This document shows, piece by piece, positions 35,594-40,404 of a DNA stretch of 64,000 bases. Origin of the DNA: Arsukibacterium perlucidum DSM 18276 (GTDB lineage: Bacteria; Pseudomonadota; Gammaproteobacteria; Enterobacterales; Alteromonadaceae); contig NZ_KB907701.1 of NCBI RefSeq assembly GCF_000382165.1, positions 186,001-250,000 of the forward strand. The letters run 5' to 3'. Below the pieces are notes generated by a model. The model had not been told where the DNA came from, made no database searches, and was given only the letters and a program-made list of their open reading frames with translations. Within the stretch, counting starts at the first letter, position 1, and every line of letters begins with the position of its first letter. Made by a program: the position numbers and the translations under genes.

Positions 35594-37243
35594 GTGGAAA
35601 GAGAAGCAATGGAGTTCGATGTCGTAATCGTTGGCGCCGGGCCAGCGGGCTTATCGGCCGCGATCCGGTTGATGCAACAAGCACAGCAAGCCAGTAAAGA
35701 AATCACGGTCTGCGTGGTAGAAAAAGGCTCTGAAGTAGGCGCTCATATTTTATCTGGTGCCGTGTTTGAACCCAGGGCACTAAATGAATTACTACCGAAC
35801 TGGCAGGAAACCGGGGCTCCGCTCTCGACGCCAGTCACCCATGATGACATTTATCTGTTCAACGGCGCACAAAGTAGCAGAAAGTTACCTGGTTTTACCG
35901 TGCCAAAAACCATGCATAATAGTGGTAATTATATCGTCTCAATGGCCAACTTATGCCGCTGGCTGGCCGAACAAGCCGAGGCACTTGGCGTAGAAATTTT
36001 TCCCGGCTTTGCCGCAAGTGAACTATTGCTTGAAGATAACGTGGTTAAAGGCATTTTAATTGGTGACATGGGCCTGGACCGCGAAGGTAAACCCAAAGAC
36101 AGTTTTACCGCCGGCATGGAACTACGCGCTAAATACACCCTGTTTGCAGAAGGTTGCCGCGGCCATCTGGGTAAGCAACTTATTGCTCATTATCAGCTGG
36201 ATAAAGACGTCTCACCCCAGCACTATGCCATTGGTTTTAAAGAAATCTGGGATGTGCCGGCTAATAATCATCATCAGGGGCTGGTGGTGCATTCTGCAGG
36301 CTGGCCATTGGCGAACGAAGCATCAGGTGGTGGTTACCTTTACCATGCTGAAAGCCAGCAAATAGTGGTGGGATTAATTATCGACTTAAATTACAGCAAT
36401 CCACACCTGGATCCCTTTGCTGAGTTTCAGCGTTACAAGCAGCATCCGGTAATTAAGCAATACCTGACCGACGGCAAGCGCGTCAGTTATGGTGCGCGGG
36501 CCATTGCTAAAGGCGGCTTGAACAGCTTACCTAAAATGAGTTTTGCCGGTGGTTTATTGTTGGGCTGTGATGCCGGTACCTTAAATTTTGCCAAGATTAA
36601 AGGTAATCATACGGCAATGAAATCCGGCATGCTTGCAGCAGAAACGGTGTTCACAGCATTAACGAAAGACGACGCCGGCGGTAAAGATTTAGCTGAATAT
36701 GCTGAGGCAGTAAAACAGAGTTGGTTATTTGAAGAACTGCACAGTTCGCGTAATTTTGGCCCGGCAATGCACAAATTTGGTACTTTCTGGGGTGGTGTGT
36801 TCAATACAATCGATCAAAACTGGTTTGGTGGCAAACTGCCCTTTACCATTAAGGATGACAACCGGGATTATGCACAATTAAAGCTGGCAGCTGATTCCAG
36901 GAAAATTGTATATCCAAAACCAGACAACATTCTTAGCTTTGACCGGCTGACTTCGGTTTATTTATCAAATACTAATCATGAAGAAGAACAGCCATGTCAT
37001 CTGAAGCTAACCGACTCAAGCATACCAATTCAGGTAAACCTGGCTAAATATGATGAACCTGCCCAGCGTTATTGCCCGGCCGGTGTCTATGAAGTGATTA
37101 ATGAAGATGGTCAGCAACCGCGGTTTCAAATTAACGCCCAAAATTGTATTCACTGCAAAACCTGCGACATTAAAGACCCAAGCCAGAACATTACCTGGGT
37201 AACTCCAGAGGGCGGAGGTGGTCCAAACTATCCCAATATGTAA
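35594..37243 (+). CDS. Electron transfer flavoprotein-ubiquinone oxidoreductase
   Basis: About 549 residues. I chose the GTG at 35594 (read MEREAMEFDVVIVGAG) because AGAGG lies eight bases upstream; an ATG at 35609 is also possible. The FAD fold starts VIVGAGPAGLSAA; the rest of the monotopic membrane enzyme follows, with a C-terminal [4Fe-4S] domain whose cysteines are in YCPAGVYEV and QNCIHCKTCDIKDP. It passes electrons from EtfAB to ubiquinone at the inner membrane. Divergent from etfBA, sharing the palindromic operators. Confidence 0.94.
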   Translation: MEREAMEFDVVIVGAGPAGLSAAIRLMQQAQQASKEITVCVVEKGSEVGAHILSGAVFEPRALNELLPNWQETGAPLSTPVTHDDIYLFNGAQSSRKLPGFTVPKTMHNSGNYIVSMANLCRWLAEQAEALGVEIFPGFAASELLLEDNVVKGILIGDMGLDREGKPKDSFTAGMELRAKYTLFAEGCRGHLGKQLIAHYQLDKDVSPQHYAIGFKEIWDVPANNHHQGLVVHSAGWPLANEASGGGYLYHAESQQIVVGLIIDLNYSNPHLDPFAEFQRYKQHPVIKQYLTDGKRVSYGARAIAKGGLNSLPKMSFAGGLLLGCDAGTLNFAKIKGNHTAMKSGMLAAETVFTALTKDDAGGKDLAEYAEAVKQSWLFEELHSSRNFGPAMHKFGTFWGGVFNTIDQNWFGGKLPFTIKDDNRDYAQLKLAADSRKIVYPKPDNILSFDRLTSVYLSNTNHEEEQPCHLKLTDSSIPIQVNLAKYDEPAQRYCPAGVYEVINEDGQQPRFQINAQNCIHCKTCDIKDPSQNITWVTPEGGGGPNYPNM

Positions 37244-37274
37244 AATTCGTTCATATAACACCTGAAAATAAACA

Positions 37275-37302
37275 AGCAGTGACCATGTCGCTGCTTTTTT
37301 AT
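37275..37302 (+). terminator. Terminator after ETF-QO
   Basis: AGCAGTGAC pairs with GTCGCTGCT (one G-U pair) around CATG, followed by TTTTT. Confidence 0.8.
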
Positions 37303-37396
37303 TGGATGAATTGTAATCAGCACAAATCCCGACTACGTTTAAATCTGCGTGTTTTTATTGCGCTCTGGCTTTTACGCATTAACCGGGATAAGCGTT

Positions 37397-39574
37397 ATGA
37401 CCAATAAAATAATAAACAAACAGCAAACCACCATTGCTACGGTCTCTTCCAAGTCAAAACCTGAAGATACTCAACAAGATACAACTATCGCTTTCGCCAG
37501 TGAAGGCTATCTGTACTTCACTGAACGTGATTTAAACCGCATTCTGGCTAATCTCGACGCGCTTCGCAGCAGTGTGTTTCCACAAGTACAAACGGACAAC
37601 GAACTGGAAAACCGCAAACAACAACACTTCCCTTCGGTATGTTTGATTGGGCTTGGCCGCTGTGGTTCAAATATTGCTCTGGACGTTGCCTCTCTGGTTT
37701 ATAGCGCAAGAAACTTTTATTTAAATGAATTTAATAATGAAGAAAAACAAAGTCGTGAACAAGAATACCGGCCGATGCGCTGGATTAAACGTAGCTTAAA
37801 CCTGACACCAAATAATAGCTTAAAACCGGTTTTCTTAATTGAGCCCTTAGTTATGTTGGGTGATCTGGATAAAGATATTGAAGGCCGGATCCGTTTTTCG
37901 CATAAAGGTGAAAAAAGCGGCTTTCTGCACGATTATACCAAAATGAAAATAATGGACTTATCTGAGGTACATGCTGGTGGGGCTGGTAACGCGCCTATCC
38001 TGGGCCAATATTTAGCAAAGATTATTTTAAATAAAGACACCCAGCGCTTCTCTAATGCTGAGTGGAAGTTTATCCACTCTTACCTGATCGATTCGTGTGG
38101 TATTAAAGCAAACCAATCCAGACTGTATTTTTATATTTTCAGTGCCGGAGGCGGCACCGGTTCGGGTATGGCTTCGGAGTTTGGTTTGGCCCAGCAGTAC
38201 GCCTATATGAGTAAAACGTTTGACACCCGACCGATCACTGAAAATGAAGAGAACCGCGGCCACTCTTTTGTGTTTGAACCGATATTTACCAGTGGCATTT
38301 GTATCCTGCCTAATATTTCAGACCACGGCGTCGAGATGTCAGAGGCATTGCATATTAATGCCGGCCGTTTATTGTGCAAATATCTGGCAGAAGAGTGGGA
38401 TTTCTCCTACAACTTCGACAATGATGACAGCAGCGAATCAAGCGTGATGCATCGAATCCGGCCGTGGAACGCTATGATGCTGATTTCTAATGATATTATG
38501 CGCTACGCTGAAGAAACGGACGATGGTGATATTCAGCATATTGATGTTAATGCCATGGAGAAATATGCCAATCAATATATCTCACAACAAATATTTAATA
38601 TCCTGACCGCACAGGCGGTCACCACCGATTATGATGAAAATTATTTCCGACGGGCGGGTATTGATATTGGCGAAACCATCCGGCTTGACGCCAATGACTT
38701 ATTTATGAGCCTGGCGGGTCCGGTTGCTGTGGCTTATGCTGAATCGGTTATTCCGGCCAATCAAAGGGAAACCGCAGAAAAAAGCAAAGCTTCCGAGAAA
38801 AACGGGCTGAATATTGATGACTTATTTTTCCGTTCAATCGATTTACCACACTTTAATAAAGTAACTCAGGCAATTGAAGGGATCAGCTTACTGCCGATAG
38901 AATCTGGCCGATACCGGCAAACGCTCGCCAGCTATGTTAAAAATGGCTATAACGCAGCCGAATTAAACGATCTGCATTTTTTCAAAAACTGCTCGTCAGT
39001 GGTTTCGATTGTCTCACTACCTAAAGACTATAAACTGTCTTATATGGATCTGAATCGCTTGAAATCGCATCTAAATAACTTGTTCCCAAATACTACCCTT
39101 AAACGCTACGCATTAGTTATCGGCGCCTCTGCTAATATTTCACTCACCACACTAATTGTAAAAAGCCCTTGTTTAAGCGATGATTTTTTAACTCTTATCG
39201 TTGCCTTTATTAAGCGCTGCTTTGCCAAAGACAGTTATCGCTTTGATGAGAAGCTTGATCAGGCAATGCTGGACTTTATTCGTAGCGATGAGTTTGATGA
39301 GCAGAAAGTCGATGCCATGCTGAATGAATTTGAAAATCCGGCAAAAATTCTCGATACCAATTGGTATGCTATTAAACCAATGTACGAGAAAAAATACCGT
39401 GAACTAATTCATAATAAAGATAAATTTATTTCTATTAATGATATTCGGTTAAGTCGGGACAGTGTTAAAAAAGCCATAAAATATCTGCGGGAAATTTACC
39501 GGCATAAAATCAGTAAAACCAAGGTTATTTCTCTTAATACTCCTGCCGGTAAAAAATCAGCCACAGCTGAATAA
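37397..39574 (+). CDS. Tubulin/FtsZ-superfamily protein (Tubulin_2-like), stand-alone
   Basis: About 725 residues from the ATG at 37397 (MTNKIINKQQTT); an upstream start adds 16 residues. The phosphate-binding loop of the tubulin superfamily, GGGTGSG, is at about residues 251-257 and has the tubulin (TGSG) form, not the FtsZ TGTG form. Nearer the N-terminus CLIGLGRCGSNIALDV (about 82-97) resembles the tubulin GQCGNQI nucleotide loop. These two motifs are the expected T1 and T4 loops, some 160 residues apart, so there are insertions compared with FtsZ. NGLNIDDLF near residue 470 is a possible T7-type segment, unproven. No signal peptide, no membrane helix. It is monocistronic: terminators flank it on both sides. 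It is much longer than FtsZ (about 380) or TubZ (about 480). Function unknown; a GTP-dependent filament or membrane-remodelling protein is inferred. Confidence 0.85.
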   Translation: MTNKIINKQQTTIATVSSKSKPEDTQQDTTIAFASEGYLYFTERDLNRILANLDALRSSVFPQVQTDNELENRKQQHFPSVCLIGLGRCGSNIALDVASLVYSARNFYLNEFNNEEKQSREQEYRPMRWIKRSLNLTPNNSLKPVFLIEPLVMLGDLDKDIEGRIRFSHKGEKSGFLHDYTKMKIMDLSEVHAGGAGNAPILGQYLAKIILNKDTQRFSNAEWKFIHSYLIDSCGIKANQSRLYFYIFSAGGGTGSGMASEFGLAQQYAYMSKTFDTRPITENEENRGHSFVFEPIFTSGICILPNISDHGVEMSEALHINAGRLLCKYLAEEWDFSYNFDNDDSSESSVMHRIRPWNAMMLISNDIMRYAEETDDGDIQHIDVNAMEKYANQYISQQIFNILTAQAVTTDYDENYFRRAGIDIGETIRLDANDLFMSLAGPVAVAYAESVIPANQRETAEKSKASEKNGLNIDDLFFRSIDLPHFNKVTQAIEGISLLPIESGRYRQTLASYVKNGYNAAELNDLHFFKNCSSVVSIVSLPKDYKLSYMDLNRLKSHLNNLFPNTTLKRYALVIGASANISLTTLIVKSPCLSDDFLTLIVAFIKRCFAKDSYRFDEKLDQAMLDFIRSDEFDEQKVDAMLNEFENPAKILDTNWYAIKPMYEKKYRELIHNKDKFISINDIRLSRDSVKKAIKYLREIYRHKISKTKVISLNTPAGKKSATAE

Positions 39575-39600
39575 GGCAAAGACTTGCTGAGTGCCCTGCA

Positions 39601-39628
39601 AGCCCCTAAACTAGGGGCTGTTTTTTTT
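39601..39628 (+). terminator. Terminator after the tubulin-like gene
   Basis: AGCCCCTA (39601-39608) pairs with TAGGGGCT (39612-39619), followed by G and eight T. Confidence 0.92.
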
Positions 39629-39642
39629 GACTCAAGAATCCG

Positions 39643-40404
39643 ATGACCGCAGCTACCCAGTATCGTTTAAATAAATTCATCAGTGACACCGGTTTTTGCT
39701 CCCGGCGCCAGGCAGACAAATATATTGAGCAAGGTTTAGTGACCGTTAATGGCCAGATCGCGCCGGTAGGTTTGAAAGTTTCTGCCAGCGATCAAGTGCT
39801 GGTAGAAGGCAAGCCTCTCAAAGATAAGCCTGCCCGGATTTATCTTGCTTATCATAAACCGGTAGGCATTACCTGTACCACCGAGCGACATATTAAAGGA
39901 AATATTATTGACGCTATCGGTTACCCTGAACGCATTTTTCCTATTGGCCGGCTTGATAAACCTTCAGAGGGACTGATATTCCTTACCAATGACGGCGATA
40001 TCGTTAACAAGGTGCTGCGGGCAGGTAATGCCCATGAAAAAGAGTACACCGTCACCGTTAGTAAACCGATTACAGCCAATTTTATCACTAAGATGGCCAG
40101 CGGCGTGCCTATTCTCGATACTGTTACCCTGCCCTGCATTGTCAGTCAGGTGTCAAAAAACACTTTTAAAATTATTCTTACCCAGGGTCTGAACAGGCAA
40201 ATTCGACGGATGGCAGAGTATTTAGGCTATGAAGTAACAAAGCTAAAACGCACCCGGATTATGCATGTTCGTCTGGCTGAACTGCGCGCCGGGCAGTGGC
40301 GGTTATTAGACAAATACGAATTGGCGCAAATGGATCAACTGCTGCAACACTCCAGTAAAACCGCCAACGACTGTAACGACATAGTGCAGGACGACGAGGA
40401 GTAA
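39643..40404 (+). CDS. rluF: 23S rRNA pseudouridine synthase RluF
   Basis: 253 residues. N-terminal S4 RNA-binding domain (about 7-60: RLNKFISDTGFCSRRQADKYI), then the RsuA/RluF catalytic domain with Asp105 in GRLDKPSEGLIFLTNDGD and the RluF-typical AGNAHEKEYTVTV and QGLNRQIRRMAEYLGYEV blocks. It makes pseudouridine 2604 of 23S rRNA. The C-terminal tail is acidic (DDEE). The ribosome site of the next gene lies in its last codons. Confidence 0.93.
   Translation: MTAATQYRLNKFISDTGFCSRRQADKYIEQGLVTVNGQIAPVGLKVSASDQVLVEGKPLKDKPARIYLAYHKPVGITCTTERHIKGNIIDAIGYPERIFPIGRLDKPSEGLIFLTNDGDIVNKVLRAGNAHEKEYTVTVSKPITANFITKMASGVPILDTVTLPCIVSQVSKNTFKIILTQGLNRQIRRMAEYLGYEVTKLKRTRIMHVRLAELRAGQWRLLDKYELAQMDQLLQHSSKTANDCNDIVQDDEE

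Follow-up and report, generated by a model that had tools for sequence, protein, structure and literature searches.

FtsZ and tubulin hold guanosine triphosphate (GTP) in their loops T1 to T6 and assemble head to tail, and acidic residues in the T7 loop of the neighbouring subunit drive hydrolysis. Here we report on a gene for a tubulin-like protein in a 64,000-nucleotide stretch of Arsukibacterium perlucidum DSM 18276 (contig NZ_KB907701.1, positions 186,001 to 250,000; hereafter the window). The closest described family is FtsZl2, named in 2010 by Makarova and Koonin with PFL_1302 of Pseudomonas fluorescens Pf-5 as its type (PMC2875224). As the relevant parts of that paper describe it, FtsZl2 occurs in Proteobacteria only, has a C-terminal region of about 300 residues without relatives and is unlinked to other genes. 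Its marks are a T4 loop of the form GGGTG(S/T)G, recognisable T1, T4, T6 and T7 loops and helix H7, and no coiled-coil domain. The same parts of the paper note family-specific inserts between T1 and T4 and predict filaments for the family (PMC2875224). Among the literature matches listed, there was no later study of FtsZl2 and there were no functional data. With FtsZl2 on record since 2010, the worthwhile task is to find its function.

The window protein very probably belongs to FtsZl2, as judged from this description and from its relatives, and is thus a new member of a known family. It carries the GGGTGSG loop and falls outside FtsZ, tubulin and FtsZl1, its motifs stand in the same order, its gene is solitary, its carriers are Proteobacteria with FtsZ alongside, and we found no feature that sets it apart from FtsZl2. 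Beyond residue 455 it extends for 270 residues, as against the approximately 300 given in the FtsZl2 passages of PMC2875224, and this region has no Pfam family above cut-off. The gene was unlinked in 73 loci, in which open reading frames (ORFs) were called mechanically. All of the best 80 of at least 567 loci are Proteobacteria by title, the genome-by-genome searches being confined to the same phylum. A relative (L103) in P. protegens FD6 is 79% identical to the window protein and may correspond to PFL_1302. The filing under FtsZl2 is a strong inference. A first-pass annotation of this DNA, made from its letters alone, had pointed to the families of Makarova and Koonin, and FtsZl2 is the one among them that fits.

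The same annotation had also pointed to Pfam Tubulin_2 (PF13809), the family of FtsZl1, and this assignment has to be withdrawn. The likeness to FtsZl1 is a weak match over residues 194–366 of the window protein, for which the hidden Markov model (HMM) of Tubulin_2 gives 16.6 bits against a cut-off of 27 (E 0.0048), and at E 0.001 the model had no match among 120 genomes from the phylum, the window genome included. FtsZl1 has operons with vWA, GTPase, kinase and OmpA-type genes, whereas the neighbours in the window are metabolic and RNA-modification genes; in this check the window neighbours were judged by profile, and those of other loci were clustered and judged by eye. Tubulin_2 proteins are also set apart in the relevant part of PMC9871819. 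With FtsZ, the window protein shares the T4 and T6-like motifs and possible T7 acids, but FtsZ has 398 residues against 725, its distance from T1 to T4 is about 88 residues in this genome against about 165 (residues 85 to 251) in the window protein, and the FtsZ profile does not find the window protein. The window genome has its own FtsZ elsewhere, and FtsZ was present in 31/31 genomes tested, so the tubulin-like gene does not replace it. Second, divergent FtsZ-like genes were seen at G037:C1:1408521-1409477 and G002:C13:35940-36863, with 38% and 29% identity to the FtsZ of the window genome. TubZ/TubR of type III plasmid partition, with its TubR partner and tubC repeats, and PhuZ of jumbo phages are, similarly, bacterial and phage tubulins outside division, but for the window gene no plasmid or phage relative, no adjoining partner and no repeat array was found. 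Alpha/beta tubulins and BtubA/B come as pairs, in contrast to the single gene of the window, and no tubulin of the PDB was matched to E 10.

In order to judge motifs and invariance, we used 81 members and a wider set of 31 members (Table 1). GLGRCGSN and FSAGGGTGSGM (residues 248–258) are invariant throughout both sets and are therefore a kept feature and not chance. The first-pass annotation had singled out GGGTGSG and GLGRCGSNI, and had made its proposal depend beforehand on their conservation among homologues; both are found at the T4 and T1 positions, and both (the latter as GLGRCGSN) are conserved in every member. Its description of the loops as eukaryote-like holds in part. T4 leans to tubulin, and T1 fits FtsZ and tubulin alike, so that the wording was too strong. 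In the FtsZ of this genome the T4 loop reads GGGTGTGA, from which GGGTGSGM departs toward the tubulin form; together with GAGN in the T3-like loop, it resembles eukaryotic alpha/beta tubulins and BtubA/B. The motif candidates are ordered as in tubulin (T1-T3-T4-T6-T7), and D431 and D434 are candidate catalytic acids, although T6, T7 and helix H7 were assigned by eye and neither hhalign nor the fragment scans confirm them.

Membership in the tubulin superfamily, as had been put forward, is likely, though on thin support. Tubulin (PF00091) and Tubulin_2 were the only two Pfam families matched by the whole window protein up to E 10, and 31/31 members matched both, all weakly (best E 0.00091 and 0.0012). 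When N-terminal fragments free of T4 were searched, Pfam Tubulin was still matched by 4/31 (best E 0.055), a larger number than for any other family, and the fragment of one member (L022) did so with E 0.16 at profile positions 2–40, the T1 end. In the relevant part of PMC2875224, an HHpred comparison of PFL_1302 with PF00091 is reported at E 0.0033. Mainly because of T4, the T1 fragment and this published result, we consider a tubulin fold highly probable for the window protein.

A considerable number of results weigh against such a reading. The match of the window protein to Pfam Tubulin reaches 18.8 bits, with a cut-off of 33 (E 0.002, residues 244–260), and that to Tubulin_2 also lies below its cut-off, as given above. 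The T4-free N-terminal fragments of 27/31 members, the window's included, did not match Tubulin, and one member's fragment matched NEW1_HB at E 0.0078, better than any of the Tubulin matches. No tubulin family was matched by the window fragments before and after T4, nor was any tubulin match obtained with the segment after T4 in the 31 members. On full length, DUF6562 was matched by 9/31 members with a best E of 7.6e-4, on par with the best Tubulin value of 9.1e-4. An HMM built from 31 FtsZ proteins only ranked all 103 members below many of 719 decoys and many of the reversed copies. With hhalign against FtsZ, the full length aligned over nine T4 columns (E 0.0083); the N-terminal part scored 26.2, above the best of 200 column shuffles (24.7) but below the same part reversed (26.6), and the C-terminal part scored 11.5, compared with 15.6 for its reversal and with higher scores in at least 15/200 shuffles. 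The correspondence of the T7-like segment to INVDFADV of the genome's own FtsZ was drawn by eye, and no profile or model confirms it. PDB searches to E 10 returned no tubulin or FtsZ chain. AlphaFold2 gave mean predicted local distance difference test (pLDDT) values of 33.2 for the full protein (81 rows) and 33.3 for residues 72–455 (74 rows), and hence no usable model, probably because the rows were at least 78% (full) or at least 83% (domain) identical to the window protein.

Weighing both sides, we favour, at a probability of roughly 0.6, a chromosomal accessory FtsZl2 GTPase of the tubulin superfamily that forms GTP-dependent filaments and has no linked partner. Such a protein would have the tubulin fold, bind GTP, polymerise, and serve as a scaffold or cytoskeletal element outside division. 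GTP would be held by the T1–T6 loops, the subunits would polymerise head to tail, and each subunit would insert its acidic T7-like loop (D431/D434) to make the GTPase site of its neighbour complete, as in FtsZ and tubulin, while the C-terminal region of about 270 residues might provide contacts with other filaments or with a target. The gene would be transcribed alone, its product acting without a dedicated linked partner. No linked gene is constant, the loci vary and the sequence is nearly frozen, which suggests that the protein works alone or with a partner common to all carriers. A role in division is unlikely, since FtsZ is encoded separately and 10/31 genomes of the genus are without the gene. 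If it forms filaments, FtsZl2 would add to FtsZ a second bacterial cytoskeleton, widespread and scarcely studied. It is common in tractable Pseudomonas and, as one gene that close relatives lack, lends itself readily to tests by deletion, transplant and localisation.

The gene is under strong purifying selection. Across the 81 members 433/725 positions are invariant, and 321/725 are so in the wider 31; dN/dS, the ratio of non-synonymous to synonymous substitution rates, was 0.012–0.059 in 8/9 pairs, with one pair saturated and dS above 1 in several. Both the 433 invariant residues and the low dN/dS are what numerous contacts within a lattice would lead one to expect. Between the window and 11 Pseudomonas-type genomes the tubulin-like protein is 76–83% identical, FtsZ 62–64% and UvrC 50–51% (omitting a partial FtsZ of G902 and a partial UvrC of G947). 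For three other genera of its family the corresponding values are 74–78%, 72–80% and 58–60%. The tubulin-like protein cannot simply be under tighter constraint than FtsZ, because it is the less conserved of the two within the genus (95 vs 98%, 89 vs 93% and 86 vs 92%, as examples) and in G037, G077 and G090 (75 vs 80%, 72 vs 75% and 70 vs 78%). In trees, the Cellvibrio and Paraglaciecola rows nest among the Rheinheimera rows with modest support. This placement, together with the inverted identities to Pseudomonas, suggests transfer. A tree that keeps the bacterial family together as a single clade was not rejected by an approximately unbiased (AU) test (p 0.256; 35 rows, with membership of that family partly presumed), and transfer is therefore a suggestion and not established. 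It is tentative, and to our mind rather doubtful, that the gene encodes a division-independent, one-gene tubulin cytoskeleton with a tubulin-type T4 and a C-terminal domain of its own, which was passed between gammaproteobacterial orders with its own promoter and was then nearly frozen.

This is a real, accessory chromosomal gene, which some species have and their close relatives lack. A scan of genome contigs returned at least 567 relatives, of which the best 80 were used for work on named genomes. Over all searches, relatives with 64–97% identity occur in Rheinheimera/Arsukibacterium, Alkalimonas, Alishewanella, Paraglaciecola, Cellvibrio and Pseudomonas; among the 80, Arsukibacterium tuosuense holds the nearest named relative (97%). 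The searches turned up no intact member with less than 64% identity. In the genus of the window, 21/31 genomes have the gene, its own included. Elsewhere it was matched in 29/98 genomes of a sample of relatives (counting one broken copy and one chance match), in 2/369 genomes of a class sample (own included), by profile in 9/398 of a phylum sample (own and the broken copy included), in 99/149 of the Pseudomonas-type genus sample g347 (two partial, G894 and G902) and in 29/48 of the family sample f210. We take g347 to be Pseudomonas; its copies fall among named Pseudomonas sequences, and one is the same sequence. From the species list in the relevant part of PMC2875224, f210 is probably Marinomonas. 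The broken copy, at G066:C1:2486898-2489729 in a genome of the same order, was viewed in pieces; only scattered gene fragments are left there, interrupted by stops and by an approximately 1-kb gap, as in a decaying gene. The match in G074 (31%, E 7.4e-4) was judged to be chance, as its frame reads by eye as a sensor histidine kinase.

The ten congeners without the gene all have rluF, in 8/10 with ETF-QO at most 1.5 kb upstream, and in 6/10 ETF-QO and rluF adjoin with less than 300 nucleotides between them. In L112–L114 both flanks of the window gene have their counterparts, but the gene itself is missing together with its 5' region; no scar was seen at this junction by eye, no repeat search having been made there. 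Loss is the simplest reading, an inference from the fact that other Rheinheimera and Alkalimonas also carry the gene after ETF-QO. Neighbours were counted in the 73 loci whose flanking sequence spans at least 1.5 kb each way, using ORFs of at least 110 residues that recur in two or more loci. They vary by lineage, ETF-QO standing upstream in 23 loci and none being common to all. The neighbour lies on the same strand in 39/71 loci upstream and in 27/73 downstream, and within 60 nucleotides of the gene in one and six, respectively. Mechanical ORF calling was poor in GC-rich Pseudomonas, where an antisense frame displaced the gene in 12/80 loci on the first pass.

These data bear on several other explanations. 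The protein could have the tubulin fold and bind GTP without polymerising, as a monomeric or dimeric regulator or scaffold switched by GTP. The long stretch between T1 and T4, the family-specific inserts mentioned in the FtsZl2 passages of PMC2875224 and the large C-terminal region could all block a filament, and the T7 correspondence was made by eye; on the other hand, the T7-like RLDANDLF is kept in every member of both sets, and the same passages predict filaments. We consider a non-polymerising protein unlikely. A kinship with tubulin may also be absent altogether, another nucleotide- or ligand-binding fold having converged on the GGGTGSG loop. Convergence would account for the thin sequence support outside T4, for the empty PDB searches and for the lack of a fold model. 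It would leave aside the matches of all 31 members to Tubulin and Tubulin_2, the four T4-free fragments that still find Tubulin, L022 at its T1 end, and the tubulin order of the motif candidates, and we judge it distinctly improbable.

Two further explanations start from the patchiness of the gene. An undescribed anti-phage or stress protein with a tubulin-like GTPase sensor would be consistent with patchy carriage within the genus and with close relatives that cleanly lack the gene at this site, but the protein (scanned alone, without its neighbourhoods) has no PADLOC match, and purifying selection is very strong, unlike that on most arms-race genes; there is little to recommend this idea. 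As for a plasmid or phage segregation tubulin of the TubZ/PhuZ type stranded in the chromosome, the gene is patchy and occupies differing chromosomal sites across genera, and the identities hint at transfer. This origin is nevertheless barely credible: tblastn of 72,556 plasmid and 50,697 phage records found no relative, two scans of viral contigs found none either, the best PHROG match had E 1.9, and positions 36900–40000 hold no direct-repeat array, only four two-copy families. The first-pass annotation was thus right to set plasmid segregation aside. A GTP-dependent FtsZl2 filament protein remains the reading that we prefer.

The locus is that of a long, stand-alone gene between ETF-QO (PF05187, PF21162) and rluF, as had been stated, and it is the only copy in a genome of 4.0 Mb (82 contigs). 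The downstream neighbour is an RluF-type pseudouridine synthase, which scores 317 bits with NF007784, just below the cut-off of 318, and lies above cut-off with PF00849; a DASS transporter is also among the window neighbours. ATG 37397 is the likely start because it aligns with an ATG in 11 relatives; a GTG 48 nucleotides upstream is an alternative that would give a product of 741 residues. Features are listed in Table 1.

Table 1. Coordinates of the tubulin-like gene, its motifs and its flanking signals in the window
Feature	Position	Strand	Remarks
Terminator-like hairpin and T run	37274-37296	+	Between ETF-QO and the tubulin-like gene (upstream)
Promoter-like site TTGTAA-N17-TACGTT	37311..37339	+	Aligned in genus relatives; pattern devised after viewing alignments
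FtsZl2-type tubulin-like protein gene	37397..39574	+	725 residues, single copy in genome; basis: ORF, relatives, description in the relevant part of PMC2875224
T1-like loop GLGRCGSNI	37649..37675	+	Residues 85-93; GLGRCGSN in 81/81 and 31/31 members
T3-like loop GGAGNAP	37976..37996	+	Residues 194-200; 81/81 and 31/31, third place A or S; T3 label by eye
T4 loop GGGTGSGM	38147..38170	+	Residues 251-258; 81/81 and 31/31; Pfam Tubulin match 244-260, E 0.002
T6-like segment ISNDIMRY	38483..38506	+	Residues 363-370; 81/81 and 31/31; cf. IPNDKLL of own FtsZ, by eye
T7-like segment RLDANDLFMS	38681..38710	+	Residues 429-438; RLDANDLF in 81/81 and 31/31
C-terminal region	38762..39571	+	Residues 456-725; no Pfam family above cut-off; 155/270 residues invariant in 81 members
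Terminator-like hairpin and T run	39601-39619	+	Between the tubulin-like gene and rluF; kept in 2 relatives without the gene

The tubulin-like gene looks like a transcription unit of its own. It had been described as flanked by terminators, and hairpins with T runs do stand on both sides. The downstream one, CCCCTAAACTAGGGG, is retained beside rluF in L112 and L113, both without the tubulin-like gene; hence it need not be that gene's terminator and may belong to rluF. The part CTAAACTA alone is also found in L118, L120 and L121, and may therefore serve in an rluF promoter in addition to a terminator. Upstream, a putative promoter lies at 37311..37339, a site that a scan with the sigma-70 consensus did not list. 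The pattern TTGnnW-N17-TAnnTT occurs upstream of the gene in 26/35 non-Pseudomonas and 0/45 Pseudomonas-side regions, and because it was devised after viewing the alignments, the Markov expectation (0.13) is no test of it. Upstream of the gene in 80 sequences there were no strict LexA, Anr or sigma-54 sites and no full 19-base Fur sites; LexA had two loose matches.

Scans of the tubulin-like protein with NCBIfam, PHROGs and PADLOC gave nothing useful. Residues 260–725 of the 31 members show no clear Pfam family, with DUF6562 below threshold in eight. As fragments, these 8/31 reached a best E of 4.1e-4, and in the window only a short fragment matched (E 0.0081). The region concerned, 38180-38761 of the window (residues 262–455) and its counterpart in relatives, may have been matched by chance. 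Residues 526–590 had been read by eye as the strand-helix-strand-strand of the FtsZ C-terminal domain, and this was dropped on the hhalign scores of 11.5 and, for the reversal, 15.6. A match to uL23 (E 1.1–1.8) was judged to be chance. In other Rheinheimera and in Alkalimonas (L033, L034, L042, L048 and others), an extra gene of about 320 residues on the opposite strand separates the tubulin-like gene from rluF or from whichever gene follows, and its product presumably resembles an aldo/keto reductase.

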